This document shows positions 1 to 46,100 of a stretch of 64,000 nt of DNA, piece by piece; the first letter of the stretch is position 1, and each line of letters starts with the position of its first letter. The translations under genes were made by a program, and so were the position numbers. Source of the DNA: Watersipora subatra (Eukaryota; Bryozoa; Gymnolaemata; Cheilostomatida; Watersiporidae); NCBI RefSeq assembly GCF_963576615.1, contig NC_088708.1, positions 2,852,001 to 2,916,000 on the forward strand, written 5' to 3'. The notes below the pieces were generated by a model, which was given only the letters and a program-made list of their open reading frames with translations, was not told the DNA's origin and searched no databases.

Positions 1-146
1 ATTTAATCCGTTCCGATATTTACTTGTGTGAAAACTGTCATGTGTGAAACCAAATATTCCTTGAATCTTTTTACATTCAAAAGCTCAAAAAGCCTATAAA
101 TATTTTAAATAGTTACAGTAAAACAGATGTGATAAATAAAACAATG

Positions 147-3106: not shown

Positions 3107-3205
3107 GTAATTATTGCTCATATTAAAGAAATGATGATTATAGTTTATTACTCTAATATATGCTTATTATTTAAAGCAATTCCATACCTACATGACTTGC
3201 AAAGT

Positions 3206-4747: not shown

Positions 4748-4754
4748 CCCACAC

Positions 4755-4831
4755 TAACGATATACAGCCTCCTAAAAGCCCCGCCCACATTATGCCCGTC
4801 GCCTATCCTGGGGTGGGGCTGTATATCATTG
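4755..4831. mobile_element. Related 77-bp palindromic mini-insert
   Basis: It shares the core ATATACAGCC / GGCTGTATAT with the 44-bp insert at 3253. The ends are TAACGATATACAGCC and GGCTGTATATCATTG. It is flanked by 7-bp direct repeats CCCACAC (4748-4754 and 4832-4838). The centre is GC-rich compared with its surroundings. Confidence 0.55.
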
Positions 4832-5249
4832 CCCACACCGAAAACTAGTTTCTTACTACCGTGAGTAAAATAAGCAAACTGCGTCTTTGAAAAGAAGATG
4901 TGGCGAAACCTACCACATCCCTAAAAGTCATAAACATTGTATAGTCGACTGTTAACGTTATCGAGTCTTTATTGGTATCAATGTGTAGAAAAAAATTCAC
5001 TGGTCACATTTGATTAGCTGATTCAAGTAATGTACTAAACAAATGGTCGAGCTATGCAAAAGTGCTGGTCCATTCAGCTCTGATTGTACTTCATAAATCC
5101 ATCTATCAGAATAGATTTTCACACAGGTGTCAACGGGGCTATGACGCATTCAATGTTCTGCAAATCATGTTTTGCATTATCTTCAACAATATTATTTCAT
5201 TATTTAATTTTTACAAGCAAAAAACTGTCCTCTCGGCATAAAGCTTCTA

Positions 5250-5438
5250 TTAAAAGTATCCATCAAGTCGTGGCCACTCACATAGTTTCAGCTGATACAA
5301 TAAGACAAATTCATCTACTGCAGCAAACTCAAACAAGACATCATGGTTTATGCAACACACATTCAAGTCTTTCTTTCCCATTTGTGGCAGTTTCCACACT
5401 GACAAAGCTGCTTCGGCTGGTGAGACCACATAAACATC
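5250..5438 (-). pseudogene. Decayed fragment with a C-x-C-G-N-C cysteine motif (P2X7 C-terminal-like)
   Basis: On the minus strand an intron-like acceptor (TTATAG) precedes a reading frame containing LCQCGNCHKWERK. After a frameshift near 5365 the reading continues in another frame as NVCCINHDVLFEF and stops at 5250-5252. The CxCGNC...CC arrangement resembles the cysteine-rich cytoplasmic C-terminal domain of P2X7 receptors, which also occurs in many unrelated, often transposon-associated invertebrate proteins (from memory). The frameshift argues for a relic. No upstream exon was identified. Confidence 0.35.
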
Positions 5439-8400: not shown

Positions 8401-8513
8401 TAAATGGTACTTCATAGAATATTAACAATCTTATTTCTTACCATCTGCTATTGTAGAAAAGATGGCTTTACGAATATCGACCAAAGCACTGTATTATATC
8501 ATATATGTTTTAG
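5439..8513. other. Upstream DNA of the Ki-67-like gene; no gene resolved
   Basis: AT-rich sequence. I looked for exons of an FHA domain, which animal Ki-67 carries at its N-terminus, and did not find one. An 85-codon minus-strand ORF (6805-7062) and a short open plus-strand stretch on the same bases are both unconvincing. A possible small exon of the Ki-67-like gene (about 8456-8489, acceptor TTGTAG) is noted but not included. Confidence 0.4.
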
Positions 8514-8552
8514 GTCAAGCCACCACTCTCGTCTGAAGTTACAAAATCCAAG
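8514..8552 (+). CDS. MKI67: Ki-67-like gene, candidate exon 1 (39 nt)
   Basis: The acceptor is ATGTTTTAG and the donor AAG|GTACAT. It encodes VKPPLSSEVTKSK in phase 0, which joins in frame to the next exon. It is so short that its support is only splice signals and phase. Confidence 0.4.
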
Positions 8553-11500
8553 GTACATCCATTTTATTCAACACAGATGCAGTTCGTATGCGTTGTTGAT
8601 TTCATGCTGTGGATGTACATTATTTATTTTACAGATACCTCGAAACATCCGCTCCCCTAACCGAAGGGCCAGTCTGTTAGAAATAAATCAGCATTCGGAG
8701 AGAGCAGGTATATTGATTTCATTATATGTGACTTAATGTCTCATTACTACCACATGGTTCTGAACCGTAAGTTATGGCGGATTTTGTAGTTGCTAAGCGA
8801 AAGTCTACTTCTCCTGCCTGGACTAGTAGCAAAAGAAAAAAAGTATCATTTGGAGCCAATCTGAGTCCTGAGTTATTTGACCAAAGACTGCCTCCTGGAA
8901 CACCTGTCCGTAGGGGCTCAACGCCGTTTATTACAGCTGGTATGTCTCAGTCACCCTTTTTATATTTATCTACTCCTTTATTCACTAGTATCTTTGTAGA
9001 TTGGAATCTATCATAGTCTGAAATGAGACATTTTTAAATAAAAAGAATATAAGTTATAGCCATTTCATCTTGGAGCTTGAGATTACATTTATTTCCATCT
9101 GGTACCATAGAACCCTCCGTATCGTTTTACTAATTATGAATCTACCATGGTTTTAGGGCCGTTTCATAAATAAAATTCTCTCATTCGTATCACTATATCG
9201 CCTTTTTAACATTTTCACTACTGAATGCATATCACTTGTAATTGCTTAAATTACCGAGCCAATTTTTAACGCAATTTAAACCTCAGGCATGGCTGCAGGA
9301 AAGCCGCTACACGTTACCTCCAATTTGTCGTAAATACCTACATGCATTGGGAAGCTGAATAATTTCTCTATAAGTTGATCTACCTGTGCTGCAATTTTTT
9401 TAAGCTTTCAAATTTTTTAGGTATTGTAAATTTGAATTCATATTTTGATTTTATAAATGTATTTAAAATGTGCTATACAAGTTCATTATACTGATTGGTA
9501 TGTTTGGTAGTTTGCAGCAAAAATCGGTTGGCTTTTTATGTACAGTGCACCCTCGAGATACGGTTACCCTGATATACGATTTTTTCACCCTACGAAGTTG
9601 AACATCGTGAGATTTTCACCTCGCTATACGAATTTTATTTCACCATACGAATTTGAGAAAAATTTCGCCTGAGTTAAAGTTTGGTGGTCGGTGTGCTCAT
9701 AACGCACGTCGAAATAACAAAGATGCCGAAATGCGGTTTGCCGAAAACATTTAACAACGTTTAGAAGAGACATGATGACCGTCTTCTCTTAGGTCAGCGT
9801 TCCACGTGGGAAATTTTGTGAAAAGTACATAATCGAGAGCGAGTATTCATTTTTAGCGTTGTAATCTCTCTACAAGACAAAAAAAAATTATTTCTATGAC
9901 AACAGAGTTGGAGGTCATAAATAACTAGGAAGAAGACGCCTGTATTGTAAATATTGCCAAGTAATATGTTCGCAAACAATTGCAATTATTAAAAATAAGA
10001 AATTCGTTAAAGCAAGCACAAGAAGGAGCTTACGACTGACGACTTGAAGGAGTTGAAAGCAATACACGGGATGTAGAAGAGACATAAAAACCTACATCGG
10101 CAGAAAAGTGTTAAGTGTTAATTTACCGATGTGAACTGGTACATAAAAACATTACTGTACAGTGCGTATCATTATTTATCTTCTTTGTGTGGCATTTTTT
10201 TCATGCTTTATTCAATACATTTTATGTTTTATTTATTTCATTTTGAGGTTTCATTTTCTTGTTTAACCACGTCTTTGCAGATGGGCCTGTTTTTTACTAC
10301 GTAAATACAAATCATCGTATGTATGTAACTCATATATAACTAGCTACTCAAGATAGTTGACACATCCACATTACTTTCTAGAAGTTGCTAAAACCATACC
10401 CTGTAGGGTATAAATACGTACAAACCTCTGTATGTATGGTCACATTGATTTTTGTGCACGTTTCATTCAAGACAAACTACTGTACAACCTTCTCTGAATC
10501 CTTTTACAAATGTTAGCTAGCAATTTTCTGCACTGCACCAGCATTTACAGTGCACGAGCAAGCGTCATCCTCAATAAGTGATAATCCGCACTAAGTTAGC
10601 TTATTTTCTTCGAGCACTCTCTGTACCAGCAGCAAAGTTGTGTCTTCCTGGCAATTTCTGCTTTTTTCGACAAAAAAATGATAAACTAGATCAACAGTTC
10701 AAGTCACGTCACTCCAAAGGTGTGTACACTATAGTATATGTAGTGTATAGTAAATAAAATTTCATTTTTTGATGGCCATTATATGGTCAAGTGTACGAGA
10801 GGCCGCTTTTGAGAATTGCAACGCATGGCTTTTACGGGCATGTAAGGTTTTAACCAGACTTGCTAAAGGCTATAGTGAAAGCTGGGAAGCGAAAAGATTT
10901 TAGTGAGGAAAAGTTATAATTTAATGAAATCGTTAAAAATACATACTGAAACTCAGCTTTAACTAGCTTTGATTGTGTTTTAGTAAGCTAAACATATTTG
11001 AAGTAAATTAAAAGCTTATGTTATACGTACGTCTTGATAGTAAGGACTCCTTACCGTGCGTACTGCATTTCGTATACACATGATGTTGCATTTTACAGTT
11101 TTGCAGATCATAATCACTAGGTGCACTTAATACAATGCAGCTACTGTAGGTAACTATAGTTACTAAAGTTAACATACTATTTTGTTACTAATTTTCAATA
11201 TGTACTACATTTTTATAAAAATTTTGGACGATTTTTACCATTTTTTTGCATTGTGTAATTACAATAGTTTCTATACCCCTACATACGATTTTTTCACTAT
11301 GCGATGCCAATCTTGGAACGGATCAACATCGTATCTCGAGGGTGCACTGTACTTTGGAAGATGAGTCATGAGCCTCGATCCATGAAAACCCAGTTTAGCT
11401 AACCGCCATAATGCTATCAAATGGCGTGCTGCAAATTTATAAGTTGTTGAATTATAATCTATCGAATGATACAAATATTTATTCAAAATCAAGTGACATA

Positions 11501-32500: not shown

Positions 32501-35500
32501 CCATTTTCGCATTTTTTCAAAGTTGCACTGGCACAGAAACTATGAAACTGAACAACTGGTGAATGAGCATAATATGTTTCAAAATATCTACAAACTTGAT
32601 ATATTCATGGCCGAAACATATTTAAACTGCTCATGAAGCAGTTTTAAACAGTCACTGTACTTTTCGGACTATAAACCGCACCCTTATATAAGCCGCATCT
32701 GCTTTATTTTCCAAAAAACAATAATAAAACAATACATAGGCGGCACCTTTGTTATAGGCCGCAGAACTCAGGACGGTGCTTTTTAAGGCGGCAGCAACAT
32801 TGTTGTTTAAACGGAACAGTGTCTAACTGTTTTGTATTAACTGACGCTTTTTAACCTAGTGCCTAACGGAACAGTACCGTTAGGCATTGTTTCGTATTTT
32901 CTTTCACCGCTGGAGGTCCACTAACCAGAGAGTCTGGTTAATGCGCCCTAGCGGTGAAAGAAAAAACCACAGAATAGCCGCGCCCTTATATAAGCCGCAT
33001 GGCTCAACTCATCAGAAAAAAGTAGCGGCTAATAGTCCGAAAAGTGCGGTACACGTATTTCATTCGTAGTGAGAAAAAAACGAATAACAGCAAAATAATA
33101 GACATTTCATGGCGATGTTTCAAACTGTTTCTAAATATTAATAAAAGACTTTGAAAACCTTGTCATAGCTATATCAACCTAAGTTCCATCACACTATAAA
33201 TCTCTGTACATCTGTAAAGTATTAATAGGAAACGTTATATTTGTTGGCCATGACTGATCTAACCCCAGGGCTGATACTCATCCCTAAAAGGCCCATTAGG
33301 TTCGGCCCAAAATCACGTTTTAGGGGGGGTTTTCAGACCATGAGGCACTGTCAGTGAATTTGCTACTTTAGGGGTGGTTTCCACAGCCAAGCCAGTAAAA
33401 GGGCCCATACTCATTGAGGTTTTATTCAGCCAAAGTAATACCAAAAAATTGCACCGAAATTCCCGTCTTCATTTTAATACAAATCGCATTAGAATCTGCA
33501 TGCTTGCTGACGGGAAACAAATGGAAAAGAGACAGTCGACACTGAATCATCTTAGCAACTCTTTAGCCATATACTCAGAACGAATGATATGCTATTTCTT
33601 TCATTGATATTTACTATGTTTTCCTTTGTAAATTAAAATGATGATTTGATGGTTGATGTTTGGAATCAGTTTTATTAACCCTTTTTGCAGGCTTAGTGAC
33701 ATTTTGTCGTTTTGCGATACTGATGCTAGTCGGCAGAGCAACTATTATGTCGCCACACGAATGGTTTTTATAAATTGATTTATGGTTAGCTAATTGCCTG
33801 TTTTTGTTTAATTTTTTACTAATAGTAAACTACAATATATCAGTCTCTGTTAGCAACAAAAAATAAGCCGTTTGCAGAAAAAAAACGATCGTTTTTGCAA
33901 TACTAAACAAACAAAAAATTCGAAATAAAAACGTATCTAAATAAAATTGGGAATTTTGTTTGTAGGTTTTTTCTGCTTTATTAATGCATGAATCATATTG
34001 GATGTTTAGCAGGGCTTAGAACCTGGGCGTCCTTTAGAAAACTCCCAGTGTTTAGGGGGTGTATTTCAAATTGACCAACCAGGTGATTGGGGGTACAATA
34101 TCCAAATTCAAATTGACCAACCAGGTGATTGGGGGTACAATATCCAAGTCTGGGCCTATCCAGGTGGGTGTTTCTTTCAGAGTATCAGCCCTGGGGATCT
34201 AACCAATAGAAAAATGATGTTTTGCAAAACTCAATGAACTGAAACCTTTTGTTTCTATAAAAAAAGACTTAAATTTTATATGGTGTTTTCGTTTTAACGT
34301 TGTTAACATGTCTATTAGTTTAAATTCAAAACCTTTCTGTGTTGGAGCAATTATAATTTGTCATTCATTTTAGGAGGTTTCTGCTATCGATAATTATATT
34401 TTGGACGATACAAATGTATTTATTAGTCGATGTTACATTTTTCCAGGGTTCCACTTCCAGTTTGTTTTATATTCAAATTTGTTATATAACTTTGCATTAA
34501 TTTATTCTATATTCTATTCTTTATTTCCAAACTGAGTTCATGTTATCTTAACATTTCTAACAGCAAAATAAAATGGCCAGCATTCATGCAATATGAACTA
34601 GAGCTCCAACAGCTGTATTTTCATTTCATAAAACACTCTTTTTTGTACTCAGCATTATCTAGTTTGTTATAAGGTTACCTTGTTAGGTACTATTGGTCAT
34701 GTTCTGTTGTTGAAAGGGTTCCGATGGTATATTGTTAGTTTGGGCTAACTAGAGAAAGTAATAACAGAGCAAAAACTAAAACCAAATGTCATGTTTTTGA
34801 GTGCAACACCCGCAGCTCTGAGGCATTTGGCGCTATGAGTTATGTGGTGATCAAAGGGTTAATGCGGTCTAGGATCAAAGGAGTTAAGCCTGGTTCCCAT
34901 ATACATCGCAAAGCACCGGCAACAGCACCGCGGGCTATTAGCGGTGAAATGGCAACCTACGCACCGAGGACTGTCGTAGTTGCCTGCGGCAACGCAATAG
35001 TTTAGCGCTGTTCAAATTTCTCATAAGGCCACAGGCAACACCTTCCCGAAATACACTGTACGGGTGAAGGTCACCATTATAGTAACGGCATGGTGAGCGA
35101 ACATTTTATTTGATGACGCGATTATGTTTAGCAATGCGGCTCATATGTGAACATATGACGCCGAGCCTAACGTCGCAAACGTTTTGCTGCGCAAGTTACC
35201 GCCGGAGTATCGCAATCGATATGGGAACCAGGCTTTACTCGTATGTATAAGGCTAGCCTTAAATTAAGGGTTAAACAATGTAAATATGCATAAATAACCA
35301 TAAATGCGCAGAGCAATAATGCCAGTGCCAACAAAACTTAACCCAAATTCATACTTTTAGTTCAAAGAAGAAAAGTGAAATGTCCGTAGAGAAAATAGTG
35401 GCCCCACCATTGGATTTCAAGAAAATGATTGCGTTGCGAGCAATTCATGGCAAGTCTGCTACCCCTGTCCTGCCTAAAAGAACTATAACACCAAGGTATT

Positions 35501-38500
35501 TCTTTCATCCACTGTTTGTGTGCTGTCAGTCGTCACAGCGTGCTTCATCACAGTCCTTGACTAGCTTATCAATTCACCTCATTGGATTTATGGCGCCCAT
35601 GAATGATAATCATATATGAGCTTATGGTTGGTGAGCTGTGCTCCTGCCTAATAATTTTGTATTAGCCTTATTTCGCTTTTAGATCTTCAAGCAAAAAGGT
35701 GCCTTTTAAAAAGACTTGGGCCGAAATAGTAAAAACAGGAAAAAGAAAATCGGGCGCTGGTTTGAAGAAAGTTTCTGTTGCTCCCAAGAGGAAGTCTGTT
35801 AGCAAGGTCATCAAAAAAACAGCCTCGAAAAGGGTAGAGCACTGTTATTAGTCTTTATGATTAGCTGTGGCTTGCTTGCTGATTACTTTCATTGCTCGTT
35901 TCAAAACTCAACACTTCTTTAGCCAAAACATGGTTGATTTGTAGAAGTCAGTTAGCAAAGCGAGGCCTATGGCTGCTCGACTCGTAGGTGGTGTGCAGTC
36001 AACTGGGCATGTCGATTCACCAGAGACCATTGTGATTGGAAGGAGGCGGAGGAGTGCTGTCAAGCCAAGCGCTTCCGTTAAGGATAATGATCTATACGAC
36101 GATCTTCCACCCACACCCGCTGCCCCAACCATGATGTTCGTGTCACCCATGACAAGTCAAAAAAAGAAGAGTCGAAAATCTCCTTTGAGTAGACATTCTT
36201 CTGCCAGTCCTAATCTAACAGGTCTCCGAAAGATGCTTAATGTGCCCAAGTTTAGGAAAAGTGTTCAGTACACGGGTGTTCGAGAGCTGCTCACAACTAC
36301 TAGGTGAATACATTAGCGCAATACACTCAAACGTCTACTTATAATCGCCTTGGCATATGAGTTTTTCATTGTATGACATGAACTTCAAATAATTTATTTC
36401 ACCCCTAAAATAATTTCTAACTTACATTTGAAGTGTAACAAAACCATTGCAGTTGTATATAAGTTGAGTTAGTTTACAGTTCACTTAGTTGTATATAAGT
36501 TGAGTTAGTTTACAGTTCACTTAGTTGTATAGTAGTTGAGTTAGTTTACAGTTCACTTAGTTTTATATAAGTTGAGTTAGTTTACAGTTCACTTAGTTGT
36601 ATATAAGTTGAGTTAGTTTACAGTTCACTTAGTTGTATATAAGTTGAGTTAGTTTACAGTTCACTTAGTTGTGTATAAGTTGAGTTAGTTTACAGTTCAC
36701 TTAGTTGTATATAAGTTGAGTTAGTTTACAGTTCACTTAGTTGTATATAAGTTGAGTTAGTTTACAGTTCACTTAGTTGTATATAAGTTGAGTTAGTTTA
36801 CAGTTCACTTAGTTGTATATAAGTTGAGTTAGTTTACAGTTCACTTAGTTGTATATAAGTTGAGTTAGTTTACAGTTCACTTAGTTGTATATAAGTTGAG
36901 TTAGTTTACAGTTCACTTAGTTGTATATAAGTTGAGTTAGTTTACAGTTCACTTAGTTGTATATAAGTTGAGTTAGTTTACAGTTCACTTAGTTGTGTAT
37001 AAGTTGAGTTAGTTTACAGTTCACTTAGTTGTATATAAGTTGAGTTAGTTTACAGTTCACTTAGTTGTATATAAGTTGAGTTAGTTTACAGTTCACTTAG
37101 TTGTATATAAGTTGAGTTAGTTTACAGTTCACTTAGTTGTATATAAGTTGAGTTAGTTTACAGTTCACTTAGTTGCATATAAGTTGAGTTAGTTTACAGT
37201 TCACTTAGTTGTATATAAGTTGAGTTAGTTTACAGTTCACTTAGTTGTATATAAGTTGAGTTAGTTTACAGTTCACTTAGTTGTATATAAGTTGAGTTAG
37301 TTTACAGTTCACTTAGTTGTATATAAGTTGAGTTAGTTTACAGTTCACTTAGTTGTATATAAGTTGAGTTAGTTTACAGTTCACTTAGTTGTGTATAAGT
37401 TGAGTTAGTTTACAGTTCACTTAGTTGCATATAAGTTGAGTTAGTTTACAGTTCACTTAGTTGGAATTTGAGTGAGTTACACTGCATATCTTCATCTCTA
37501 CATCCATATCGCCAGGTCTATGCTTTTATCCTTCCGCCGCTACAATAAAGTAAAACAATATTTTTATTAGTTTTCCATTCATTTGTTCATTTCTTTTATT
37601 GCTGTGCATATTATTTATTTGCAGTATGTATTAAGGACAATTTTTTGACTTGGGAAACGAATTAAACACACTGCAGTGTATTCTTAAGGAATTTTTGATA
37701 CATATTGGTTTCAGATCGATGATTTTCTCAACATTGTAACTACTAATGAATTCTATAGTTGAGTTGTTTTTTTCAAAATCATTTGTCGACAAGGAGCACT
37801 GACTGGAGCAACGTTGGTTAATTCACTAGTAATGTAATTGTTAGATAGTGTATTCGTTTACCAACCTTGCGTTTTTGTTGATAATTCGCGGGTCAAGTGA
37901 TGAACTTTTGATGTCAGTCAAATGTCTCAATAATTTCTGGCTCGCTCTATTATTTGATGCAATCACAAGTTAATAGAATCTTAGCATAAAATAAGATTGT
38001 GTGTGTTATGTTGACGTAGTCATCTTGTCGGCATATTTTATTGACACCTTTTTTATTCGTTGTTGTTACTGAGACAATATTTTTACATGTCGGTAAATTT
38101 TGTATTGTTACTTATACTTACTTATGGTTACTTATACGTACTGTTTCATATGTTTACATTTGTTCGGTTCAAACCAAACACCGCATGCTACAGTACAAAT
38201 AGTTTATTACGCGCAAAATAGAAATAAAGTAGGCGTTCCCTCAACAAAATTAATCCGATTCTGAGAACGTTTACTTTATAGGTATTTTACGTTATACAAA
38301 CAGTAAAATACATGTAACTTGCCTAATCCATTCCAAAATCTTTCCAAGCTCCCCTTTGGCCATGCAACAAAGAAAAACTTGACGGAAAATATTTAATGTG
38401 TGGGCTGAACCGTAACTGCAGTATTATTTGTTTGCATCGACAACTCTTTTTCTTTTTATGATCAATCTCACTTGTTTTATAGACCATGATTGTACGGATG

Positions 38501-41500
38501 TTTTTATAGACCATGATTGTACGGATGTTTTTATAGACCATGATTGTGTGGATGTTTTTATAGACCATGATTGTGTGGATGTTTTTATAGACCATGATTG
38601 TACGAATGTTTTTATAGACCATGATTGTACGGATGATTGTTTATAGACCATGATTGTACGAATGTTTTTATAGACCATGATTGTACGGATGTTTTTATAG
38701 ACCATGATTGTACGGATGATTGTTTATAGACCATGATTGTACGGATGATTGTTTATAGACCATGATTGTACGAATGTTTTTATAGACCATGATTGTACGG
38801 ATGATTGTTTATAGACCATGATTGTACGAATGTTTTTATAGACCATGATTGCACGGATGTTTTTATAGACCATGATTGTACGGATGATTGTTTATAGACC
38901 ATGATTGTACGGATGATTGTTTATAGACCATGATTGTACGGATGATTGTTTATAGACCATGATTGTACGGATGATTGTTTATAGACCATGATTGTACGAA
39001 TGTTTTTATAGACCATGATTGTACGGATGATTGTTTATAGACCATGATTGTGTGGATGATTATTATAGACCATGATTGTACGGATGATTGTGGTAATTCT
39101 AAAGTAAGTTGATGAAGAGCGCACATCTTTGACGTTCATTTACAACGATTTGCTTATTTATCTAAACAGTAACTTGTACTCTTCAAAGTAAAACTAATAA
39201 CAAATATTTTATATGTTTGCAATAAAGCAAAACGACAAATATTTTTACTATAAAAATTGGTACTACCTGTTCACGGTTTATCTGTATACAGGGGTCAAGG
39301 TTAGAATAAAAGATAACTTTCAACGATACTCCAACTTGTGACATTCAGATTAATAGATCGATGCTGTAACATCTGCACCAATCGATTTCCTTCAAGTATT
39401 TATGAACAATTGCGCAGCTACTTATTTTGTTTTGTAGACACGCCGGGCGATCTATTACAATGAACTAAAATGTCACCAAAGTTGCGTATCGCATATATGC
39501 AATGAGATAGATTAATATTCAAATCGCATTTGAGAACTTTCCCGATATGACACTTTACGTTATATAGAATTTTTTTACATAGTACTAAGCAAAAACTTTA
39601 CATAAATTCTTTACGTTATTTGAAATTCACGTTATAGGAGCGTCTACTGTATAGAAGATGAACAGAAGTAATTAAAAATATGTGGTTGCAAAAATGCCAA
39701 AACACTAAAATTCAAACGCTTTCGTCATTGGTGTTTTGCGAACCATGACCGACATGAATGTGTTTTCACAGATGGCAGCTAATGGGCGCATAGACGCTCA
39801 TTTACCTACTGATCAAATGGTTGCAAAATTGATTTCATTGGTCATGTAGCCTACTAAACATTTGGGAAGTCAAACAATTCAAAATCAACTACGACACATT
39901 TTATTATCTTGATTGTTTTAGCCAAACGAAATATTTGAAAACAATAACGGCTATCCTAATCAAAATAAGCGCCAATTTTTTAAGGATTATTCACCTGGTA
40001 TTAGTTGGAGTTTGAATTTGCTTATTGTGTATCGATGATTTCAGATCTCGGAGGAGTAAGGTTACCAAGATGGATGGTGTACGAGAATTGTTGCAAGAGA
40101 AGAAACCTGAGCGATCACCCAGGCTGGCAGGAGTTCGGGAGATGATGAAGACACCAAAACACCCTGAGCGATCACCCAGGCTGGCAGGAGTTCGGGAGAT
40201 GATGAAGACACCGAAACAACCTGATCGATCACCCAGGCTGGCAGGAGTTCGGGAGATGATGAAAACACCAAAACAACCTGAGCGATCACCCAGGCTGGCA
40301 GGAGTTCGGGAGATGATGAAGACACCGAAACAGCCTGAGCGATCACCCAGGCTGACAGGAGTTCGGGAGATGTTGAAGACACCAAAACAAAACCAATCTC
40401 TGCAGTTCACAGGTAACAGAGATATTAGACTGTTTTGTGATATTAATTAATAGTGTAATTTGTACTGTTTAGGCTATCAGCCAAGATATAAAAAGTGCTT
40501 AGTTTCTTTATTTCGTGGCCACCTCCTTTCAGATGGAAGATCCCTTCAATTTACATATCCTAACTCAAGTACGTAGATTTCAAATCTGATGAGTGACTCT
40601 GGATTTGATTCCCATTTCTTTGTAAAACCAAATTTGTATATAAATCCGTAGTTATCTCTACCTAATATATGAACATATGTTATTTCCTGGGCCAAATAGC
40701 AATAAAAATACAAGTTATTGCAAAATAGACATTTATTATCATCTCCAAACCTCCAATAGAAACTCTGTACCTGACATGAATAAAAAAAAACTTCGCATAA
40801 CTTCACACGAATACTGATATCATTTAGAGTTATTCACTTGCACTGATATTTGCATGGCTTGAGTGTCGACAGTTTATGCTTATGCTGGTATCGGTCTCAG
40901 ATATGGAGGTAGGACTGTCACTTATGTTGGTGTCCTATCTAATAAAGATGTCATATTTGGCGGATATGCACCTATTTCTGATCCAGAATCCTCCGCAGAG
41001 GAGCTGTCGCTCAGTATTGACTACCGAAACACCCATTTTCGCATCTTTACAGTAGACGATCTCCCTCTCATTGCATCTCATGGACTTTTCAAAATTGAGG
41101 TTATCCTACTTCTGCACAAGCTTGGACTTGATCTGCCGATTTCTAAAACAGTAAATGTAACTGTGTGCAAATTAATTTCCCTTCCCAAAACCCTATGGCT
41201 CTCATTCATCACTTGATAAACCTGCAACTTTTGAAATAATACACATAAGCTAGTTCGAGACAAGCACACAAAATATCCGACTATCAGCTTATTACTGAAT
41301 GTAACTGGATATGGACTTCTGGTCTCACCTTTCATGATTAGTCTCACTGTACTTATTGAACAGTTTGATGACATCCCTTATAGTCATGAACGTATTTTCT
41401 GACATCAGTCTCTGTTCAATTTCTAAGCAAAACTCTTGAGGCAGCTGATTACTTTCTTCTCCCATATCATGCTGCTGAGTATTAATGCTAAACAAAAAAA

Positions 41501-44500
41501 GGTAATGTGAGAATTATATTACGATGTCAATAACACATCAAATCATATGATTTGCGAGCCAGTCATATTCAGTGAACATTACCATCCTTTAACCCATGAT
41601 AATAATAAGACCACAGCACACCCCACCAAATATTTCAATGGTCCCATGAATGGCACTAAATCATGCAGTTCTCTAAATCGTTATTTGAATAGAAATATGG
41701 AAACTGATAGATTGTGATTTGTTAGCAGGTTAATGTTATTCACAATCATCACAAACACAAAATTGATCTCGCACAGTGACATATAATTTACCTGCATGCT
41801 TAATTCATGCTGAAAGACAAAAATTATCAATTACAACGTAACACCTTCTGGTTACCATAGATTCATTTTACAAGAAAAGACTTGACAATCAAATGGAATG
41901 ATACATAAAATCAATACAACATCGTTCAAGTTTTACCAGATTTAAGCTTTGTCATGCACATTTTATTGAACTTGAATGGGCTGTGTGAAATCTGCCATAC
42001 CGTTTTCTTTCAGCAGCGGAGATGTAGGTATAATCTCTGGCAGTTCTTGTGATAATGCATCTCCGAAGCAATAGGATCTTTGACAAAGTGCATGTTGCTC
42101 CAACCACCAATGAATCTCCTTTTTCTCTAGCACAGTTGTTTGTTAAGTTCCATCCATTGCTGGACATAATTCTGTAGCACTGAGGCTGAATAGTCAGTTA
42201 AATTAATTTAACTTTTGATGGCATCTTTTGTGCCTTCAAAGCGAGCCACACAAGCCATCATAGACAAACAACATAGATCAATATCATCATGCTTAGAGTT
42301 CTGTAATGTGATAACTTGACTCGGCTGACCTGTCCCAATTATAGAATGAAATCTAATTGGTTGAGAAGAAAAAAATAACCAACAAAAACGATCGTTTTGA
42401 GAGAAAACAACTCCTTATTCATGAGATTTGTTTCATCAATTTGGCATAGACCTGGGAATCCTACATTCAGTCACTCATCAGATTCATAATCAGCACCCTC
42501 AAAATACCCTGTAGGGAAAGTTTCATCCATCTTAAAGAAGGTGGTCAGAACTTGCAAGATAAATTGGCTTGGCTGATAGCCTAATTCAATCTCAAGGCTG
42601 GCTGGTGAAATTTGCTGACGAATCTGTCAGCACTGCTTCTGACATTAGGGTATTCGCGTGTATTAGGAGCGCATGATATTTTTATGCTCGACGCTTCTGC
42701 AGTATGTTTTCAAATAAAATCCCAAAGAGGTTGGTCCAATTATAGTAAAAAAAATAATTCCACGAAATTCAGAATAAAATTCGTTTAAAAAATAAAATTA
42801 TTAATAAGGAATACTAGAAAACTAAGTAGATCACCTCTATATATATATATATCAAGGTTTACGTTAGCTATTACTTATAGCCACAGAGAGCGTTCATTTT
42901 TACTTTTTAGTAGTTTTTATTATTTTCAAATCCATTTGTTTGCTAGTTTTAAGTAAACTGTGTAACTAATTATAGTAGACGCTCCTATGATGTATACCTC
43001 CTCTAGCGTAAATTCCACATAACGTAAAGAATTTATGTGAAGTTTTTGCTTACTAGTATGGAAAAAATTCCATTTGATGTAAATCGTCAAATCGGGCGAG
43101 TATTCAAATTCGATTTGAATGTTACTCAATCTCGTCGGACTTGCGAGAGAAAAACGATGTGCGTATGAAGCTATATCTATTATATATATAATAGATATTT
43201 ATATATAATATGTATTATATATAATATGTATTATATATAATATGTATTATATATAAAGATATATATTATAACACTTTATAGATATACATCTTTGCATATA
43301 TAAAGTTATATACATATATATATATACAACTTTCGCGACATTTTAGTTCGTCGGGATACATCGTCAGATGTGTCGACAAAAAATAGAATAGTTGCTGCAC
43401 AATTTTTCATAAATACAAAGACGATCGATTGGTGCAGGTGTTACAGTGTGCCACATCTGCACCCCTGGGTACAGATGGACGACGAATAGGTAATACCGCT
43501 TTTTGTAGGAAAAAAATTTTGCTGTTTTACTTTATTGTAGACGTATAAAATATTTGTTATTAGTTTTATTTTGCAGAATAGACTTTGCTGTTTAAAAGTA
43601 CGAAGCAAAAACTTCACATAAATTCTTTACGTTATTTGCTGATTAGCAGTATAGATCTACTGTATTAGCAGATTAACTAATTAGCCAGAAAACTGCGCAA
43701 TGTTCAAACACTCACTAATTAAAGTTGGAAACTGAATATATGCTCTGATCACAGTCCAGCTCAACAGACTGGAGTAGATTCAACCATGAAATAAAATACA
43801 AGCAGTGTTAAGGTCTCACATATCCAATTTATAGATTTTTGTTTGCGCCAAATTTCTTAACATACTTTGGTGGCAGTCTCGACGTGCGTTTCAAAAAGTC
43901 TTATTACATAATTTTTATGTTTTTGCAACGACAATGATCATGATATTGCCTCATACTAGTTGTGAAGTTTGAAAACATTATTCTGTAGGATTAGACATAT
44001 AAACCATTATTTATCTTAAACCATATCAGTAGTATGACTAGCTTTTTAATCGACGCAGGTCATACCATATCAATCCTTTTATGATTGTTTTGACATATAG
44101 TAATACATCTGGAAAAAAGGTGATAAATTTGGGAGTCTATCAAGCAGACATTTTTTGGTTAAACGCCTCCCAACATTCCTCAAATAATGTGATTCTAAGT
44201 GGCAAATTTTTATGAAAAAGAATATCGGATACATCATTGATAGCTAAGTGGCCAGATTCATACCAAGTGCTCCTCCTTAGCTACATCTACATTCTTTTAC
44301 CAATTTCTGTATTCAGGGATTGCAGAACTTATGAGAGAATACAAAGAAAGGCTCTCTGAAGACCTGTCCTATTTGGAGAATCTCTTCAAAGAAGCATCAC
44401 ATGAAACCACTAAAGTCGCCATTACCAAGTCTACGTCGGCAGCGAAAGAACGATCTGCCATGTCTCAACCTAAAGAGAAGAAACAGACACCATTGCAAAC

Positions 44501-46100
44501 ACCAGCAGCAAAGCTAGGTGAACAGGTTGCTGCAATTTCTCTCGCTTCTCAAAAGTCATCTGCCCAAGCTGTAACTTCGTTAAAAAAGTCTAGAAGAGCA
44601 AAGGCAGGTGGCATTCCCACTAACATAAATGACTCTCCTAAGAAAACTGAAACACCAGCAAAGAGAAGCAAACGGGCTGTTGTAGGGTCTCCTCCGGTCA
44701 AAGCTGCAACTCCGACAAAAAGAGGTAATAGAGCAAAAATGGCGGCCTCCTCCCCTAACATGACTGATTCTGCAAAGAAAACTGAAACACCAGCAAAGAG
44801 AAGCAGACGGGCTGCTGTAATGTCTGCCTCGCCTTCGAAATCTTCTCCAGTCAAAGTTGCAGCCCCATTAGAAAAGAGTAGAAAAGCTAAGGTGGCGGCC
44901 TCTTTCCCTAGCATGGCTGATTCTGCAAAGAAAACTAAAACACCAGCCAAGAGAAGCAGACGCGCTGCTGTAATGTCTGCCTCTCCTTTAAAATCTTCTC
45001 CTATCAAAGCTGCAACTCCTTTAAAAAGGAGTAGAAGAGCTAAGGTGGCAGCCGCTTCCCCTATCACGGCTGATCCTCCCAAGAAAATTAAAACACCAGC
45101 AAAGAGAAGCAGACGAGCTGCAGTAATTTCTGTCTCTCCTTTAAAATCTTCTCCAGTCAAAGCTGCAACTCCCTTAAAAAGGAATAGAACAGCTAAGGTG
45201 GCAGCCACTTCCCCTATCGTGGCTGATTCTGCAAAGAAAACTAAAACACCAGCCAAGAGAAGCAGACGCGCTGCTGTAATGTCTGACTCTCCTTTAAAAT
45301 CTTCTCCTATCAAAGCTGCAACTCCTTTAAAAAGGAGTAGAAGAGCTAAGGTGGCAGCCGCTTCCCCTATCATAGTTGATTCTCCTAAGAAAACTAAAAC
45401 ACCAGCCAAGAGAAGCAGACGGGCTGCAGTAATGTCTGTCTCTCCTTTAAAATCTTCTCCAGTCAAAGCTGCAACTCCCTTAAAAAGGAATAGAACAGCT
45501 AAGGTGGCAGCCACTTCCCCTATCGTGGCTGATTCTGCAAAGAAAACTAAAACACCAGCCAAGAGAAGCAGACGCGCTGCTGTAATGTCTGACTCTCCTT
45601 TAAAATCTTCTCCTATCAAAGCTGCAACTCCTTTAAAAAGGAGTAGAAGAGCTAAGGTGGCAGCCGCTTCCCCTATCTTGGCTGATTCTGCAAAGAAAAC
45701 TAAAACACCAGCCAAGAGAAGCAGACACGCTGCTGTAATGTCTGCCTCTCCTTTAAAATCTTCTATCAAAGCTACAACTCCTTTAAAAAGGAGTAGAAGA
45801 GCTAAGGTGGCAGCAACTTCTCCTATCATGGCTGATTCTCCTAAGAAAACTAAAACACCAGCAAAAGGAAGCAGACGGGCTGCTGTAATGTCTTCTTCAG
45901 TCAAAGCTACAACTCCAAAAAAAAGAAGTAGACAACCTGTTGATATTTCTAGCTCTCTTCAGAAGTCATCGTCAATCCAGGCTGCAGCTCCGGTAAAAAA
46001 AAATGGGCGACATAAAGCAATTTCTCCTAAAATGACCATATCAGCCAACAAGGTTTCTCAGCCTGTAGCTAAAAGAATAACTCGCTCTCGTAAATTGTAA
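8514..46100 (+). CDS. MKI67: Ki-67-like chromosome-periphery protein (12-exon model, N-terminus uncertain)
   Basis: Model: join(8514-8552, 8635-8707, 8772-8939, 23329-23422, 23929-24051, 24871-25006, 30316-31187, 35361-35495, 35683-35833, 35945-36303, 40045-40412, 44317-46100). All junctions are GT-AG and all phases agree; the total is 4302 nt (1433 aa plus stop). Landmarks in order are a PP1-docking KVSF followed by LSPELFDQRLPP (exon 3), TWAEIVKTG (exon 9), DSPETIVIG and NLTGLRKMLNVP (exon 10), five LAGVREMMKTPK repeats (exon 11), FTGIAELM (start of exon 12) and a basic C-terminus ending KRITRSRKL. From memory, human Ki-67 has RVSF..LRPELFDENLPP, SWADVVKLG, SPCTIIIG and LSGIAEMFKTP in that order. 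Ki-67 coats mitotic chromosomes, recruits PP1 and is heavily phosphorylated by CDK1. No FHA domain was found in the window, so the true start may lie upstream. Confidence 0.85.
8635..8707 (+). CDS. MKI67: Ki-67-like gene, exon 2
   Basis: The acceptor is TTATTTTACAG and the donor GCAG|GTATAT. It encodes IPRNIRSPNRRASLLEINQ followed by HSERA, basic and serine-rich, with an RRAS phosphosite-like motif. It ends in phase 1. The following intron would be only 64 nt with a weak acceptor (CCGTAAG), but the phase matches exon 3. Alternatively, translation could start at the ATG at 8774 in exon 3. Confidence 0.5.
8772..8939 (+). CDS. MKI67: Ki-67-like gene, exon 3: PP1-docking module
   Basis: Contains KRKKVSFGANLSPELFDQRL, then PPGTPVRRGSTPF. 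KVSF is an RVxF-type protein phosphatase 1 docking motif. The extended block (VSFG, PELFD, LPP.TP..RG) is the conserved PP1-binding region shared by Ki-67 and RepoMan/CDCA2, which brings PP1-gamma to anaphase chromosomes. This is the best-conserved part of the protein. The donor is GCTG|GTATGT, phase 1. The ATG at 8774 could be an alternative start and would give 1395 aa. Confidence 0.9.
8940..9540. other. Start of intron 3, nothing recognised
   Basis: AT-rich intron DNA between exon 3 and a pogo/Tigger-type element. No ORF or RNA gene seen. Confidence 0.5.
9543..11349. mobile_element. pogo/Tigger-type DNA transposon, non-autonomous, family T1
   Basis: The ends read CAGTGCACCCTCGAGATACG and CGTATCTCGAGGGTGCACTG. 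They are flanked by TA (9541-9542 and 11350-11351), the usual target duplication of the Tc1/mariner-pogo group. The 1.8 kb interior has no intact transposase. A separate end of the same family lies at 28980-29192 in the opposite orientation. Confidence 0.75.
11350..12005. other. Intron 3 DNA between two pogo-type elements
   Basis: No recognised gene. Small ORFs on both strands (for example 11566-11757 minus) lack homology that I can recognise. Confidence 0.45.
12006..13257. mobile_element. pogo/Tigger-type DNA transposon, family T2
   Basis: The left end is CAGTCATACTTCGACTTACG. The right end is its reverse, CTTCAACTTACGAG-type, ending ATTACTG. TA dinucleotides flank both ends. The element of about 1.25 kb carries a broken transposase gene on the minus strand (see the next entry). 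Ends beginning CAGTC with CTTACGAG-type sequence are typical of Tigger/pogo elements. Confidence 0.8.
12394..12979 (-). pseudogene. Broken pogo/Tigger transposase (CENP-B-like N-terminus)
   Basis: It starts at the ATG at 12977-12979 with KKKRMITVDIKRKIIQKY, then ELAQQFDRTTSTI. This is the helix-turn-helix of the CENPB_N/Tigger family. A stop follows at about 12827. Further on, other frames give MERLLRHWIKDKRLAGDS, then MLCEKAGAIYKNYKK, the second DNA-binding (CENPB-type HTH) segment. A late piece, RQRQTSVDRFILKR, resembles the C-terminal tail of Tigger proteins. Stops and at least two frameshifts, plus loss of the catalytic DDE core, make it dead. Confidence 0.75.
13258..14585. other. Intron 3 DNA, nothing recognised
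   Basis: AT-rich. Mirror ORFs at 13487-13818 on both strands and one at 13918-14139 (minus) show no family I can name. Confidence 0.45.
16051..18682 (+). pseudogene. Harbinger Myb/MADF-like accessory gene, frameshifted
   Basis: Three exons can be seen. The first starts near MPNTPFSDEKIFKMLLLIKE (about 16051) and contains NKWKALKKRYEEEKE, a MADF/Myb-like DNA-binding region. It has a frameshift at the A/T run near 16165 and a donor G|GTAAGT at about 16272. The second (about 16779-16908) encodes LYRQAGGFMKISSDLLDLRP. The third (from about 17966, acceptor TATACAG) encodes a serine-rich stretch, then RKRRAEASDELYEKMGRML and a proline/serine-rich repeat tail. A TAA at about 18414 interrupts the tail, but the same frame stays open to a TAG at 18680-18682, so the TAA is a single nonsense change. 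The second intron carries the element at 16974-17856. Confidence 0.7.
16974..17856. mobile_element. Inverted-repeat DNA element, family 1, copy 2 (level 4 of the stack)
   Basis: 883 bp with the same ends as the copy at 147-1029 (TTAAAGGTTGACTTGCAAC...GTTGCAAGTCAACCTTTAA-type) but in the opposite orientation, as shown by the position of the 'gagattcccatctacgg' block. It sits in the second intron of the Harbinger Myb-like gene. Confidence 0.85.
19306..19816. repeat. 500-bp near-perfect palindrome (foldback element)
   Basis: The left arm (from about 19306, AGAGTGCCCCGGGTTTGCA) pairs with the right arm (to about 19816, TGCAAACTCGGGCACT) across almost its whole length, with the axis near 19562. 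Matched blocks include GGTGCAATATACTA / TAGTATATTGCACC, GCATAACTGTAGATCTG / CAGATCTACAGTTATGC and GCGAATTAGAGTGTCCC / GGGACACTCTAATTCGC. It lies between the two genes of the Harbinger element and is probably a later insertion. Confidence 0.8.
19833..21245 (-). pseudogene. Harbinger DDE transposase, broken
   Basis: The first exon (about 21245-21085) encodes SWYENVLLKSLDDKWIENVR and ends SPISLKKR. The second, from about 20705, encodes YKLASCAEYRVVAEAFRVSK, then the first catalytic Asp in AIGAIDGTHI, the second in HILGDPAYPKS (frame ends at 20163), and after a disruption the Glu in SVEMAFGRLKSRW (frame 20141-19833). The spacing and motifs match the DDE_Tnp_4 family. The stop after PGKI and frame changes around 20110-20165 (LTPAQECFN-like reading in another frame) show that it no longer makes a full enzyme. 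Confidence 0.85.
22502..23328. other. End of intron 3, nothing recognised
   Basis: Between the hAT stack and exon 4. No ORF or RNA gene was recognised. Confidence 0.5.
23329..23422 (+). CDS. MKI67: Ki-67-like gene, exon 4
   Basis: The acceptor is TTTTGTCAG and the donor ATGAG|GTAAGT. Phase 1 in, phase 2 out. It encodes ASEVVASPRLSLLKKRSTVG followed by SIEEESLKGMR. The SPRLSLLKKRS stretch is a proline-directed and basic site. It joins in frame to exon 3 across the 14.4 kb intron that holds the transposon stack. Confidence 0.85.
23929..24051 (+). CDS. MKI67: Ki-67-like gene, exon 5
   Basis: The acceptor is CTGTTAACAG and the donor AAAAAG|GTGGGT. Phase 2 in and out. It encodes a Lys/Ser/Ala/Pro-rich segment with HSPAKSPQLKKSPASKS, in which three SP dipeptides are followed by basic residues (CDK-type sites). 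Confidence 0.85.
24871..25006 (+). CDS. MKI67: Ki-67-like gene, exon 6
   Basis: The acceptor is TCTGTATTTTAG and the donor GAAGAT|GTGAGT. Phase 2 in, 0 out. It encodes TKKHVVLKSPHVPHLSMSET followed by EERLYSAQRKQEGAAFKRLS and HSPED. No named domain was recognised. Confidence 0.8.
25367..26190. mobile_element. Inverted-repeat DNA element, family 5 (AGGCCCGTACACAC ends)
   Basis: The left end AGGCCCGTACACACTCGCTC pairs with the right end AGCAATAGTGTGTACAGGCCT. Subterminal blocks ('gattagctgt' and 'cagctaatcg') also pair. The element is split by a family 6 element at 25492-25835. It lies in intron 6. The short ORF 25484-25828 is accidental. Confidence 0.7.
25492..25835. mobile_element. Short inverted-repeat element, family 6, copy 1 (nested)
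   Basis: About 345 bp, with ends ACTAGTTCCTATATACTTCGC and GATATGGTAACCAAGCTT. It aligns along its whole length with the cleaner copy at 34887-35234 (shared blocks GCAAAGCACCGGC, GCAACGCAATAGTTTAGCGC, AAGGTCACCATTATAG). It is nested in the family 5 element. Confidence 0.8.
26400..27240 (+). pseudogene. Decayed pogo/Jerky-type transposase core, split by a family 3 element
   Basis: One frame reads KTSEQEKQYFTIVLARLANS then TKLPPLI, matching the conserved 'KTTG.EK..FTV.LA..A.GTKLPP' of DDE_1 (pogo, Jerky, CENP-B related) transposases. Another reads GWIDDSGCAKWIIEVWT, matching the following 'GW.D..G..KW...VW' segment. Several frame changes and stops show decay. The family 3 element at 26751-27145 is inserted in it, and coding-like sequence resumes at about 27150. 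Confidence 0.6.
26751..27145. mobile_element. Short inverted-repeat element, family 3, copy 2
   Basis: Begins TACCGTACTTTTCGGGCTAT and ends AGTCCGAAAACTATGGTA. It is inverted relative to the copy at 2101-2500, and the same central GGTGAAAGAAA hairpin is present. It is inserted in the decayed transposase of the surrounding pogo-type element. Confidence 0.8.
27361..28461. mobile_element. Inverted-repeat DNA element, family 2, copy 2
   Basis: The right end GTGTCCTAGGGTA matches the family, and the left end is mutated (TACCATAAGACACTTATG). It is inverted relative to 1908-3106. The element contains a pogo-type end at about 27687 (CAGTCAAACTCGGATAACTCG), suggesting a further nested insertion whose far end was not located. 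Confidence 0.65.
28980..29192. mobile_element. Solo end of pogo/Tigger family T1
   Basis: Reverse match to 9543-9760, ending CGTATCTCGAGGGTGCACTG then TA. It shares blocks such as GAGGTGAAGATCTCACGATG and GAAATAAAATTCGTATAG with the family. The opposite end of this copy was not found nearby. Confidence 0.7.
29193..30315. other. End of intron 6, nothing recognised
   Basis: AT-rich intron DNA before exon 7, with no ORF, RNA gene or shared repeat recognised. Confidence 0.5.
30316..31187 (+). CDS. MKI67: Ki-67-like gene, exon 7: 18 tandem 11-aa TP/SP repeats
   Basis: The acceptor is TTTTAATTGTAG and the donor CTGACAG|GTACAT. Phase 0 in, 2 out. After SVSPDLDLVGLSASPDLGLN comes an array of 18 units of 33 bp with consensus GTPARASPSSK (about 30391-30985). 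Nearly every unit holds one TP and one SP followed by basic residues, giving roughly 35 possible CDK sites. The tail includes MSPTLDRSTPQSPNK and DTPRPKTPDR. The array is Lys/Arg-rich, fitting a chromatin-coating segment that could be phosphorylated in mitosis. Long antisense ORFs here (30306-31073) are a by-product of the repeat. Confidence 0.9.
30391..30985 (+). repeat. 33-bp coding minisatellite in exon 7
   Basis: Eighteen units of GGTACTCCTGCAAGGGCGTC plus TCCAAGCAGTAAA-type sequence. Substitutions between units are few and no unit changes the frame. Recurrent variants (ATGGCG for AGGGCG; ATCATT for AGCAGT) show that blocks of units were duplicated together. Confidence 0.9.
31188..32654. 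other. Intron 7, first part
   Basis: AT-rich. A pogo-type terminus lies at about 31836 (CAGTCAAACCTCTTCATGCG) without a recognised partner. No gene seen. Confidence 0.45.
32655..33051. mobile_element. Short inverted-repeat element, family 3, copy 3
   Basis: Starts CTGTACTTTTCGGACTATAA and ends ATAGTCCGAAAAGTGCGGTA. Same orientation and internal hairpin as the copy at 2101-2500. It lies in intron 7. Confidence 0.8.
33264..34195. mobile_element. Non-autonomous hAT-type element with GATCTAAC target duplication
   Basis: The termini are CCCAGGGCTGATACTC and GAGTATCAGCCCTGGG. The 8-bp direct repeat GATCTAAC occurs on both sides (33256-33263 and 34196-34203). The size is 932 bp. Near its right end an internal block containing ACCAACCAGGTGATTGGGGG is duplicated in tandem (about 34070-34145). 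No transposase was seen. It lies in intron 7. Confidence 0.8.
34887..35234. mobile_element. Short inverted-repeat element, family 6, copy 2
   Basis: About 348 bp. The ends AGCCTGGTTCCCATATAC and GATATGGGAACCAGGCTT form clean inverted repeats, with TTA/TTA-type flanks. It ends about 125 bp upstream of exon 8. Confidence 0.8.
35361..35495 (+). CDS. MKI67: Ki-67-like gene, exon 8
   Basis: The acceptor is ATACTTTTAG and the donor CCAAG|GTATTT. Phase 2 in and out. It encodes KKKSEMSVEKIVAPPLDFKK followed by MIALRAIHGKSATPVLPKRT and ITPR. TP sites continue and no separate domain was recognised. Confidence 0.85.
35683..35833 (+). CDS. MKI67: Ki-67-like gene, exon 9: TWAEIVKTG motif
   Basis: The acceptor is CGCTTTTAG and the donor AAAAGG|GTAGAG. 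Phase 2 in, 0 out. It encodes SSKKVPFKKTWAEIVKTGKR, then a basic stretch (SVAPKRKSVSKVIKKTASKR). The TWAEIVKTG block corresponds to SWADVVKLG of human Ki-67 (from memory), lying between the PP1 site and the repeats as it does in the human protein. Confidence 0.9.
35945..36303 (+). CDS. MKI67: Ki-67-like gene, exon 10: first Ki-67-type repeat cores
   Basis: The acceptor is TTGATTTGTAG and the donor ACTAG|GTGAAT. Phase 0 in, 2 out. It contains HVDSPETIVIGRRRRSAV (human counterpart SPCTIIIG, from memory), an acidic DNDLYDDLPPTP segment, then NLTGLRKMLNVPKF and QYTGVRELLTTTR. The last two are degenerate copies of the core 'L-x-G-[IFLV]-x-E-[LM]-[FLM]-x-[TV]-P' that defines the Ki-67 repeat. Confidence 0.9.
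36451..37463. repeat. Minisatellite, 36-bp unit, about 28 copies
   Basis: Tandem units built from GTATATAAGTTGAGTTAGTT followed by TACAGTTCACTTAGTT. Units are almost identical, with only a few single-base variants (GTGTATAAG, GCATATAAG, TTTATATAAG). It is non-coding, in intron 10, 147 bp past the end of exon 10. The lack of divergence suggests recent expansion or an assembly-sensitive array. Confidence 0.95.
37464..38228. other. Intron 10 DNA between two minisatellites
   Basis: AT-rich, with no gene or shared repeat recognised. Confidence 0.45.
38229..39651. mobile_element. Inverted-repeat DNA element, family 7 (TACAGTAGACGCTCC ends), copy 1
   Basis: The right end is GTTATAGGAGCGTCTACTGTA; the left end (GTAGGCGTTCCCTCAACA) is its diverged reverse. 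Subterminal sequence (AATTCTTTACGTTATTTG, CTTTACATAAATTC) is shared with 42971-43673, 52038-54020 and about 50669. A 22-copy minisatellite is embedded near its left end. No transposase was seen. Confidence 0.65.
38476..39091. repeat. Minisatellite with 27- and 28-bp units, 22 copies
   Basis: Units are based on TATAGACCATGATTGTACGG, with two alternating linkers: ATGTTTT-type and ATGATTGTT-type. I counted 22 copies of AGACCATGATTG. It is contained in the family 7 element. The ORFs it produces on both strands are artefacts of the repeat. Confidence 0.9.
40045..40412 (+). CDS. MKI67: Ki-67-like gene, exon 11: five 19-aa Ki-67-type repeats
   Basis: The acceptor is TGATTTCAG and the donor TTCACAG|GTAACA. 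Phase 2 in, 1 out. After TKMDGVRELLQEKK come five units of consensus PERSPRLAGVREMMKTPKQ (57 bp each, about 40108-40390), then NQSLQF. The unit contains the Ki-67 repeat core (LAGVREMMKTP, human consensus near LAGFKELFQTP from memory) with SP and TP sites at each end. Vertebrate repeats are about 120 aa; here only the core is repeated. Confidence 0.9.
40863..41216 (+). CDS. Unrecognised ORF inside intron 11
   Basis: An open frame of 117 codons without a plausible ATG start. It contains GIGLRYGGRTVTYVGVLSNK and ending segments such as FKIEVILLLHKLGLDLPISK. A splice-like CAG before ATATGG (about 40904) and a TAAATG after AAAACAG suggest that part may be an exon. The composition looks more protein-like than the surrounding intron, and the antisense frames have stops. 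I do not recognise the family. It may also be antisense to the minus-strand fragments nearby. Confidence 0.25.
   Translation: MSTVYAYAGIGLRYGGRTVTYVGVLSNKDVIFGGYAPISDPESSAEELSLSIDYRNTHFRIFTVDDLPLIASHGLFKIEVILLLHKLGLDLPISKTVNVTVCKLISLPKTLWLSFIT
41329..41487 (-). pseudogene. Unrecognised coding-like exon, minus strand
   Basis: Acceptor TTTTTTGTTTAG and donor GAAAG|GTGAGA on the minus strand bound a 159-nt open frame containing LPQEFCLEIEQRLMSENTFM followed by TIRDVIKLFNKYSETNHE. Splice signals and amino-acid make-up look genuine. Together with 41962-42200 and 42471-42623 it may be one gene nested in the intron on the opposite strand. The family is unknown. Confidence 0.4.
41962..42200 (-). pseudogene. 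Unrecognised coding-like stretch, minus strand, frame-shifted
   Basis: One frame reads YSASVLQNYVQQWMELNKQL and then meets a stop. The next frame reads VLEKKEIHWWLEQHALCQRS and continues through CFGDALSQELPEIIPTSPLL to a stop near 41962. Either a frameshift or an unrecognised intron separates the two. The family is unknown. Confidence 0.3.
42471..42623 (-). pseudogene. Unrecognised coding-like terminal exon, minus strand
   Basis: After the acceptor GCTGACAG a 50-codon frame contains ASLEIELGYQPSQFILQVLT and ends FEGADYESDE then TGA (42471-42473). The acidic end looks like a natural C-terminus, yet more coding-like sequence lies further downstream on the same strand, so the gene model is unclear. 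Confidence 0.35.
42971..43673. mobile_element. Inverted-repeat DNA element, family 7, copy 2
   Basis: The left end is TAGTAGACGCTCCTATGATG and the right end ATCTACTGTA. Blocks ACATAACGTAAAGAATTTAT and its reverse TAAATTCTTTACGTTAT occur near both ends. The interior includes a TATATAAT-rich simple-sequence tract (about 43180-43330). It is inverted relative to the copy at 38229. Confidence 0.65.
44317..46100 (+). CDS. MKI67: Ki-67-like gene, exon 12: basic C-terminal repeats and stop
   Basis: The acceptor is TCTGTATTCAG; phase 1 in; stop TAA at 46098-46100. The exon junction completes FTGIAELM, the last Ki-67-type core. Then come YKERLSEDLSYLENLFKEAS, a possible short coiled coil, and nine tandem units of about 51 aa containing KKTKTPAKRSRRAAVMS, SPLKSSP and KAATPLKRSRRAKVAA. 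Almost all of this is Lys/Arg/Ala/Ser/Pro with repeated TP and SP sites. It would bind chromatin or DNA, as the LR domain at the end of vertebrate Ki-67 does. The end is KRITRSRKL. A 451-codon antisense ORF (44549-45904) is a repeat by-product. Confidence 0.9.
44630..45930 (+). repeat. About 153-bp coding tandem repeat, nine units
   Basis: Nine copies of the 51-aa basic unit. Units 4-5 and 6-7 form nearly identical pairs (RNRTAKVAATSPIVADSAKK, then VMSDSPLKSSPIKAATPLKR occurs twice), showing a recent duplication of a two-unit, 306-bp block. Unit 8 lacks one codon and unit 9 is shortened. Confidence 0.85.

Follow-up and report, generated by a model that had tools for sequence, protein, structure and literature searches.

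The window analysed here, the whole 64-kb stretch of DNA at genome positions 2852001-2916000, carries a gene whose motifs and exon model together define 12 spliceable exons on the + strand at positions 8514-46100. These exons were modelled from open frames and splice sites within the 64-kb window, and they reproduce the 12 exons with matching phases that an earlier note on this DNA had placed between the same limits: 11 of 11 junctions are in phase, all introns are GT-AG, and the 1427 amino acids (aa) encoded in the window include no internal stop. The phase agreement is meaningful because 8 of the 11 non-terminal window exons have a single open frame and the other 3 have two. The exon at 8514..8552 (phase 0-0, AG/GT borders), which had been read as the first of the gene, is exon 4, with at least three further exons 5' of the window. 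Exons 1 and 2, at genome positions 2838837-2838961 and 2843931-2844163, precede the window by 13.2 and 8.1 kb and join in phase, as do exon 3 (2851672-2851913) and exon 4, all on the + strand. The full model comprises 15 exons over 59 kb with 14 of 14 junctions in phase, and runs for 1627 aa from start to stop, with an in-frame stop 9 bp 5' of the ATG. Two weak candidates between exons 3 and 4, 4737-4812 (or 4768-4812, which would fit in phase) and 5391-5419, were left out of the model but may be exons; exon 3 joins the exon at 8514 in phase even in their absence.

Exons 1 and 2 encode the two parts of an N-terminal FHA domain of the Ki-67 type. The earlier note had suggested looking for an FHA exon upstream of 8.5 kb or beyond the window, and PF00498, Ki-67 FHA structures and in-phase joins place it beyond the window. 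A genome search with PF00498 returned 11 matches, one of them at 2843929-2844111, ~8 kb upstream of the window and on the same strand. When the human Ki-67 FHA was aligned with the 20 kb upstream and with the window as far as 8.5 kb, the best open pieces were those at genome positions 2843842 (score 132) and 2838831 (72), the next scoring 41. The joined exons match two human Ki-67 FHA entries in the PDB (5.1e-20 and 5.5e-20), the next family being MDC1 (0.0088), and the Pfam match is 2.8e-9. Identity to the human domain is 37 of 93 aligned residues, with a score of 199 where 1000 shuffles gave at most 66. Phosphothreonine binding is uncertain because two signature positions are altered, with Q in place of the histidine of SxxH and NS in place of NG. 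A separate ISRVHC string at 11333 (+) was rejected as an FHA core; it has no Pfam match, and we take it as a dispersed repeat because it recurs at 9559 (-) and 29176 (+).

Exon 5 (8635..8707, +), with a single open frame and in phase, leads into exon 6 (8790..8939, +), which encodes an RVxF + KiR-SLiM PP1-docking module of the Ki-67/RepoMan type: KVSF...PELFD at 8840-8881 (+), followed by LPPGTPVRRGSTP. The exon 6 frame matches Pfam PP1_bind with E 6.2e-16 (58.8 bits, cut-off 27), and among solved PP1-docking peptides (PDB entries 5ioh, 5inb and 5j28) it matches those of RepoMan (1e-9 and 2.4e-9) and Ki-67 (1.3e-8). It agrees with the published KiR-SLiM pattern at 13 of 14 fixed positions, the mismatch being a G where N/S/D/A/I is asked; no other site in the window comes closer than 6 mismatches. 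In the 784-Mb, 239-contig genome, PP1_bind has one match, at this gene; this search was made exon by exon on the best candidates only, of which two were scored, and might therefore overlook a second copy that has diverged strongly.

Three small spacer exons follow on the + strand: exon 7 (23329..23422), with a strong donor, in-phase joins and weak coding support; exon 8 (23929..24051), K/S/P-rich and moderately supported; and exon 9 (24871..25006), also moderately supported and preferred, for reasons of phase, to the alternative 24956-25006. When bases 1-44000 were scanned for exons with RPLP0, the gene next door, as the sole training set, the two strands gave similar numbers (+ versus - candidates: 17 versus 18 at a score of at least 5, 9 versus 9 at 8, and 7 versus 5 at 12), some of the - strand candidates being antisense of model exons. 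Support for exons 7-9 is therefore moderate and comes from phase, splice sites and composition. Exon 10 (30316..31187, +) consists of ~18 tandem 11-aa units of the GTPARASPSSK type and an S/T-P-rich end, and exon 11 (35361..35495, +) is defined by its splice sites and phase.

Between the PP1 module and the cores of exon 14 lie two motifs, WA(D/E)(V/I)V and STGHxxSPxTIxIG, that the gene appears to share with human Ki-67. The human letters of both are presumed here, as is the identity of the second stretch with the Ki-67 'conserved domain' (CD). Exon 12 (35683..35833, +) carries KTWAEIVKTG, and exon 13 (35945..36303, +) carries STGHVDSPETIVIG, the likely CD counterpart, together with two degenerate cores. 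The presumed human CD query, STGHANSPCTIIIG, has its best place at 35999, where it aligns with the exon 13 stretch and where 1 of 100 shuffles did as well; a longer query that adds the first human core finds the same best place, equalled by 0 of 100 shuffles. KSWADVVKLG, presumed for human and placed in a 23-mer, aligns with KTWAEIVKTG at 35711 (1 of 200 shuffles as good), this 23-mer having been shortened afterwards from a 46-aa WADVV query whose best alignment was out of register and was equalled by 7 of 100 shuffles. PMC4841783 describes a 22-aa motif inside a 31-aa domain of unknown function, conserved in all homologues. Pfam searches of the WAEIV and DSPET exons gave no match, and the profile of the annelid linker family PF16915 was silent here and in the controls. 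The only PDB match of exon 13, to Mediator subunit 6 at 0.026, was taken as chance.

The repeats form three tandem arrays: 33 bp × 17.9 (91%), 57 bp × 5.0 and 153 bp × 7.8. Exon 14 (40045..40412, +) contains one DGVRELLQ core and then five 19-aa units, four with identical LAGVREMMKTP-type cores and one with LTGVREMLKTP. Exon 15 (44317..46100, +) completes a further core and continues with ~eight basic 51-aa units with S/T-P-x-K sites, a basic tail and the stop. There are nine xGxx[EK][ML] cores in total, the ninth (TGIAELM) spanning the exon 14/15 junction. Estimates of dN/dS among units are 0.62 (0.34-1.24) for the 51-aa, 2.53 (0.45-10.15) for the 11-aa and 0.40 (0.06-2.34) for the 19-aa array. 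The 22-aa human motif printed in PMC8354752, where a version of it is described in all homologues, reads TPKEKAQALEDLAGFKELFQTP and aligns with TPKQPERS-PRLAGVREMMKTP at 40265, its top-scoring site among 3503 open pieces and one that 1 of 100 shuffled queries equalled; the nine cores provide such a version here. The human-type repeat is another matter, since exon 14 reaches only half of the curated KI67R cut-off (16.6 bits against 32.4, E 0.012), the profile is unlisted for the 440-aa joined stretch, and it is absent from the genome search, in which control genomes were also silent. Of the parts proposed as ancient, the repeat core is shared, but the human-type repeat of the Pfam model is not recognised. 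We do not treat the KI67R result as defining because chicken repeats are much shorter and diverged, and zebrafish has only four (PMC8354752). In vertebrates the repeat region, where present, always lies within one exon (PMC8354752), whereas the arrays here occupy exons 10, 14 and 15.

Along the + strand the order is thus KVSF...PELFD, TWAEIVKTG from 35714, DSPETIVIG from 36014, five LxGxxExMxTP-type cores at 40124-40384 and a basic tail up to the stop at 46100, as the earlier note had it. A six-frame pattern scan of the 64 kb found no further match to the scanned motifs, KVSF alone not being among the patterns. Profile searches, proposed as a check, gave PP1_bind at exon 6 and, for the LxGxxE exon, KI67R alone and below its cut-off; exon 6 and exons 12-14 (then numbered 3 and 9-11) did not fall into different families. 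Since the FHA domain, the PP1 module, the exon with repeat cores and the strongly basic C-terminus share a strand and follow each other as in human Ki-67, we consider it very likely, on sequence grounds, that this is an invertebrate MKI67 orthologue, probably single-copy and co-orthologous to vertebrate Ki-67 and RepoMan. The earlier claim that an invertebrate Ki-67 keeps its modules in the vertebrate order is supported by the FHA exons, the PP1 module and the in-phase joins.

Could these exons belong to two adjacent genes, one coding for a short FHA-PP1 protein whose last exon is 6 or 9, the other for a basic repeat protein beginning at ~30-35 kb? The gaps of 14.4 kb between exons 6 and 7 and of 5.3 kb between exons 9 and 10, where no exon is shown, would suit such a division, as would the weak coding support for exons 7-9 and an open frame that continues past exon 6 to 9013 before a stop. 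Yet every junction is in phase, the exon 6 donor scores well, the ninth core is complete only across the exon 14/15 splice, and FHA, PP1 module, Ki-67 motif and basic end succeed one another as PMC8354752 describes for human Ki-67, all of which makes a split very unlikely. An invertebrate RepoMan-like protein with PP1 docking only appears highly improbable: the PP1 module is slightly nearer to RepoMan (1e-9) than to Ki-67 (1.3e-8), but a Ki-67-type FHA, the TIxIG motif and Ki-67 cores are present, and the FHA exons largely refute it.

RVxF and KiR-SLiM are common to this gene and RepoMan (CDCA2), and according to PMC5005033 Ki-67 and RepoMan are homologous in the PP1 region alone. We give almost no credence to the idea of a pseudogene in decay or of a chimaeric assembly; the introns do contain minisatellites and a transposase, but 1627 codons run without a stop, the GT-AG sites are intact, start and stop are present, and the whole gene lies on a single 79-Mb contig. 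To our knowledge RepoMan has neither an FHA domain nor Ki-67 cores, and this gene, which has both, does not match the RepoMan type.

Ki-67 coats dividing chromosomes and is used in medicine as a growth marker. The human protein is more than 3000 aa long, against 1627 aa for the orthologue proposed here. The two have in common, in the same order, an N-terminal FHA domain, the RVxF/KiR-SLiM module, LxGxxE..xTP-type cores and a basic C-terminus; unlike vertebrate Ki-67, this gene has no recognisable ~120-aa KI67R repeats, and its arrays lie in three exons, not one. The earlier description of Ki-67 as usually a vertebrate protein overstates the novelty, although the distant homologue itself is supported. 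Booth 2014 (PMC4032110) also lists Ki-67 from Ciona, Saccoglossus, Hydra and Trichoplax and RepoMan from vertebrates only, and calls Ki-67 ancestral, with RepoMan proposed as a later offshoot. The single PP1_bind match in our genome search is what would be expected of the state before RepoMan split off, and fits that proposal. This fit, together with a neighbouring RPLP0 that visibly departs from the PDB chains aligned with it, is our ground for calling the host an invertebrate. A Ki-67 with FHA and PP1 domains is described from the annelid Platynereis in PMC12669781 (2025), whose authors know of no phylogenetically validated orthologue reported in other invertebrates. The present gene resembles these homologues, which have the PP1 module in all cases and FHA with PP1 in Platynereis.

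Because invertebrate homologues are already in print, we regard the gene as adding one more, to all appearance complete, to a family already known and not as a new kind. The accessible portions of PMC4032110 and PMC12669781 describe only PP1 or FHA with PP1, with no statement on WA(D/E)xV or on rebuilt invertebrate repeats, and those of PMC8629999, PMC13144362 and PMC4811767 add nothing on invertebrate Ki-67. Its interest lies in the intact module order together with rebuilt arrays. With a distant orthologue in complete form, the modules that stayed fixed (FHA, PP1 docking, WA(D/E)xV and SPxTIxIG, a motif of unknown function) can be told from the repeats, which were rebuilt. By description, the gene is also like the fungal kinetochore protein Bridgin (Bgi1; PMC7794384), which has an N-terminal FHA domain, a putative PP1 site, a disordered middle and a basic chromatin-binding end, and of which Ki67 is named as the metazoan homologue. 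Bridgin differs from it in being a kinetochore protein and in a PP1 site that is called unconventional (PMC7794384).

The window part of the protein contains 113 S/T-P sites, where 1000 shuffles averaged 34 and never exceeded 51, and 54 S/T-P-x-K/R sites, where they averaged 7.7 and never exceeded 16, an excess that is inflated by the copying of repeat units. By charge count the C-terminus is basic, with a net +119 over 594 aa, its likeness to the chromatin-binding LR being putative. If all S/T-P sites were phosphorylated, the computed net charge would change from +53 to -41 for residues 288-695 and from +119 to +31 for the tail. The basic tail may bind chromatin; CDK would phosphorylate the S/T-P sites at mitotic entry, giving the middle a negative charge but leaving the tail positive, and the protein could then stand out from the surface of the chromosome and coat it. 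Phosphorylated nucleolar partners might be recruited by the FHA domain, and in anaphase the KiR-SLiM would bring PP1 to chromatin, reversing the effect of phosphorylation. The ~120-aa human-type repeat would not be conserved in such a scheme, and lineage-specific arrays of 11, 19 and 51 aa would carry the S/T-P sites instead.

According to PMC9106583, mitotic phosphorylation gives the Ki-67 repeats alternating charge blocks that drive phase separation, and charge-block mimics restore the chromosome periphery in knockout cells. By analogy we infer that the gene may work in the same way with different repeats. Our tentative reading, in which we have slightly less than even confidence, is that the mitotic charge switch of Ki-67 has been kept without its sequence: three unrelated arrays (~18 × 11, 5 × 19 and 8 × 51 aa) would replace the human repeats, their S/T-P sites, once phosphorylated by CDK, turning a uniformly basic chain into a block polymer with an acidic middle and a basic tail, and FHA, PP1 docking, WA(D/E)xV and SPxTIxIG would be the fixed ancient parts. 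The gene offers a direct test of the claim made in PMC9106583 that the chromosome coat depends on the charge pattern and not on the precise sequence of the repeats.

The introns and flanks hold other elements. Upstream of the window, the intron that follows exon 2 holds an open frame of 270 aa (L010:3357-4166, +), perhaps a transposon protein. In the 14.4-kb intron, a DDE_Tnp_4 transposase lies at 19836-20729 (-; E 7.6e-10 for 20166-20729), and the S/P-rich open pieces near it at 17934-18680 (+) may be its partner protein; the pieces 17934-18413 and 18417-18680 were rejected as exons, as they adjoin the transposase. Two minisatellites lie in the exon 13/14 intron, 36 bp × 28 (98%) at 36451-37463 and 27 bp × 22 (or 56 bp × 11; 93%) at 38475-39091. 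At 59123-60311 (-) lie exons of the gene for ribosomal protein P0 (RPLP0), three joined pieces of which match PDB P0 chains at 1.2e-110 and are visibly different from the chains aligned.
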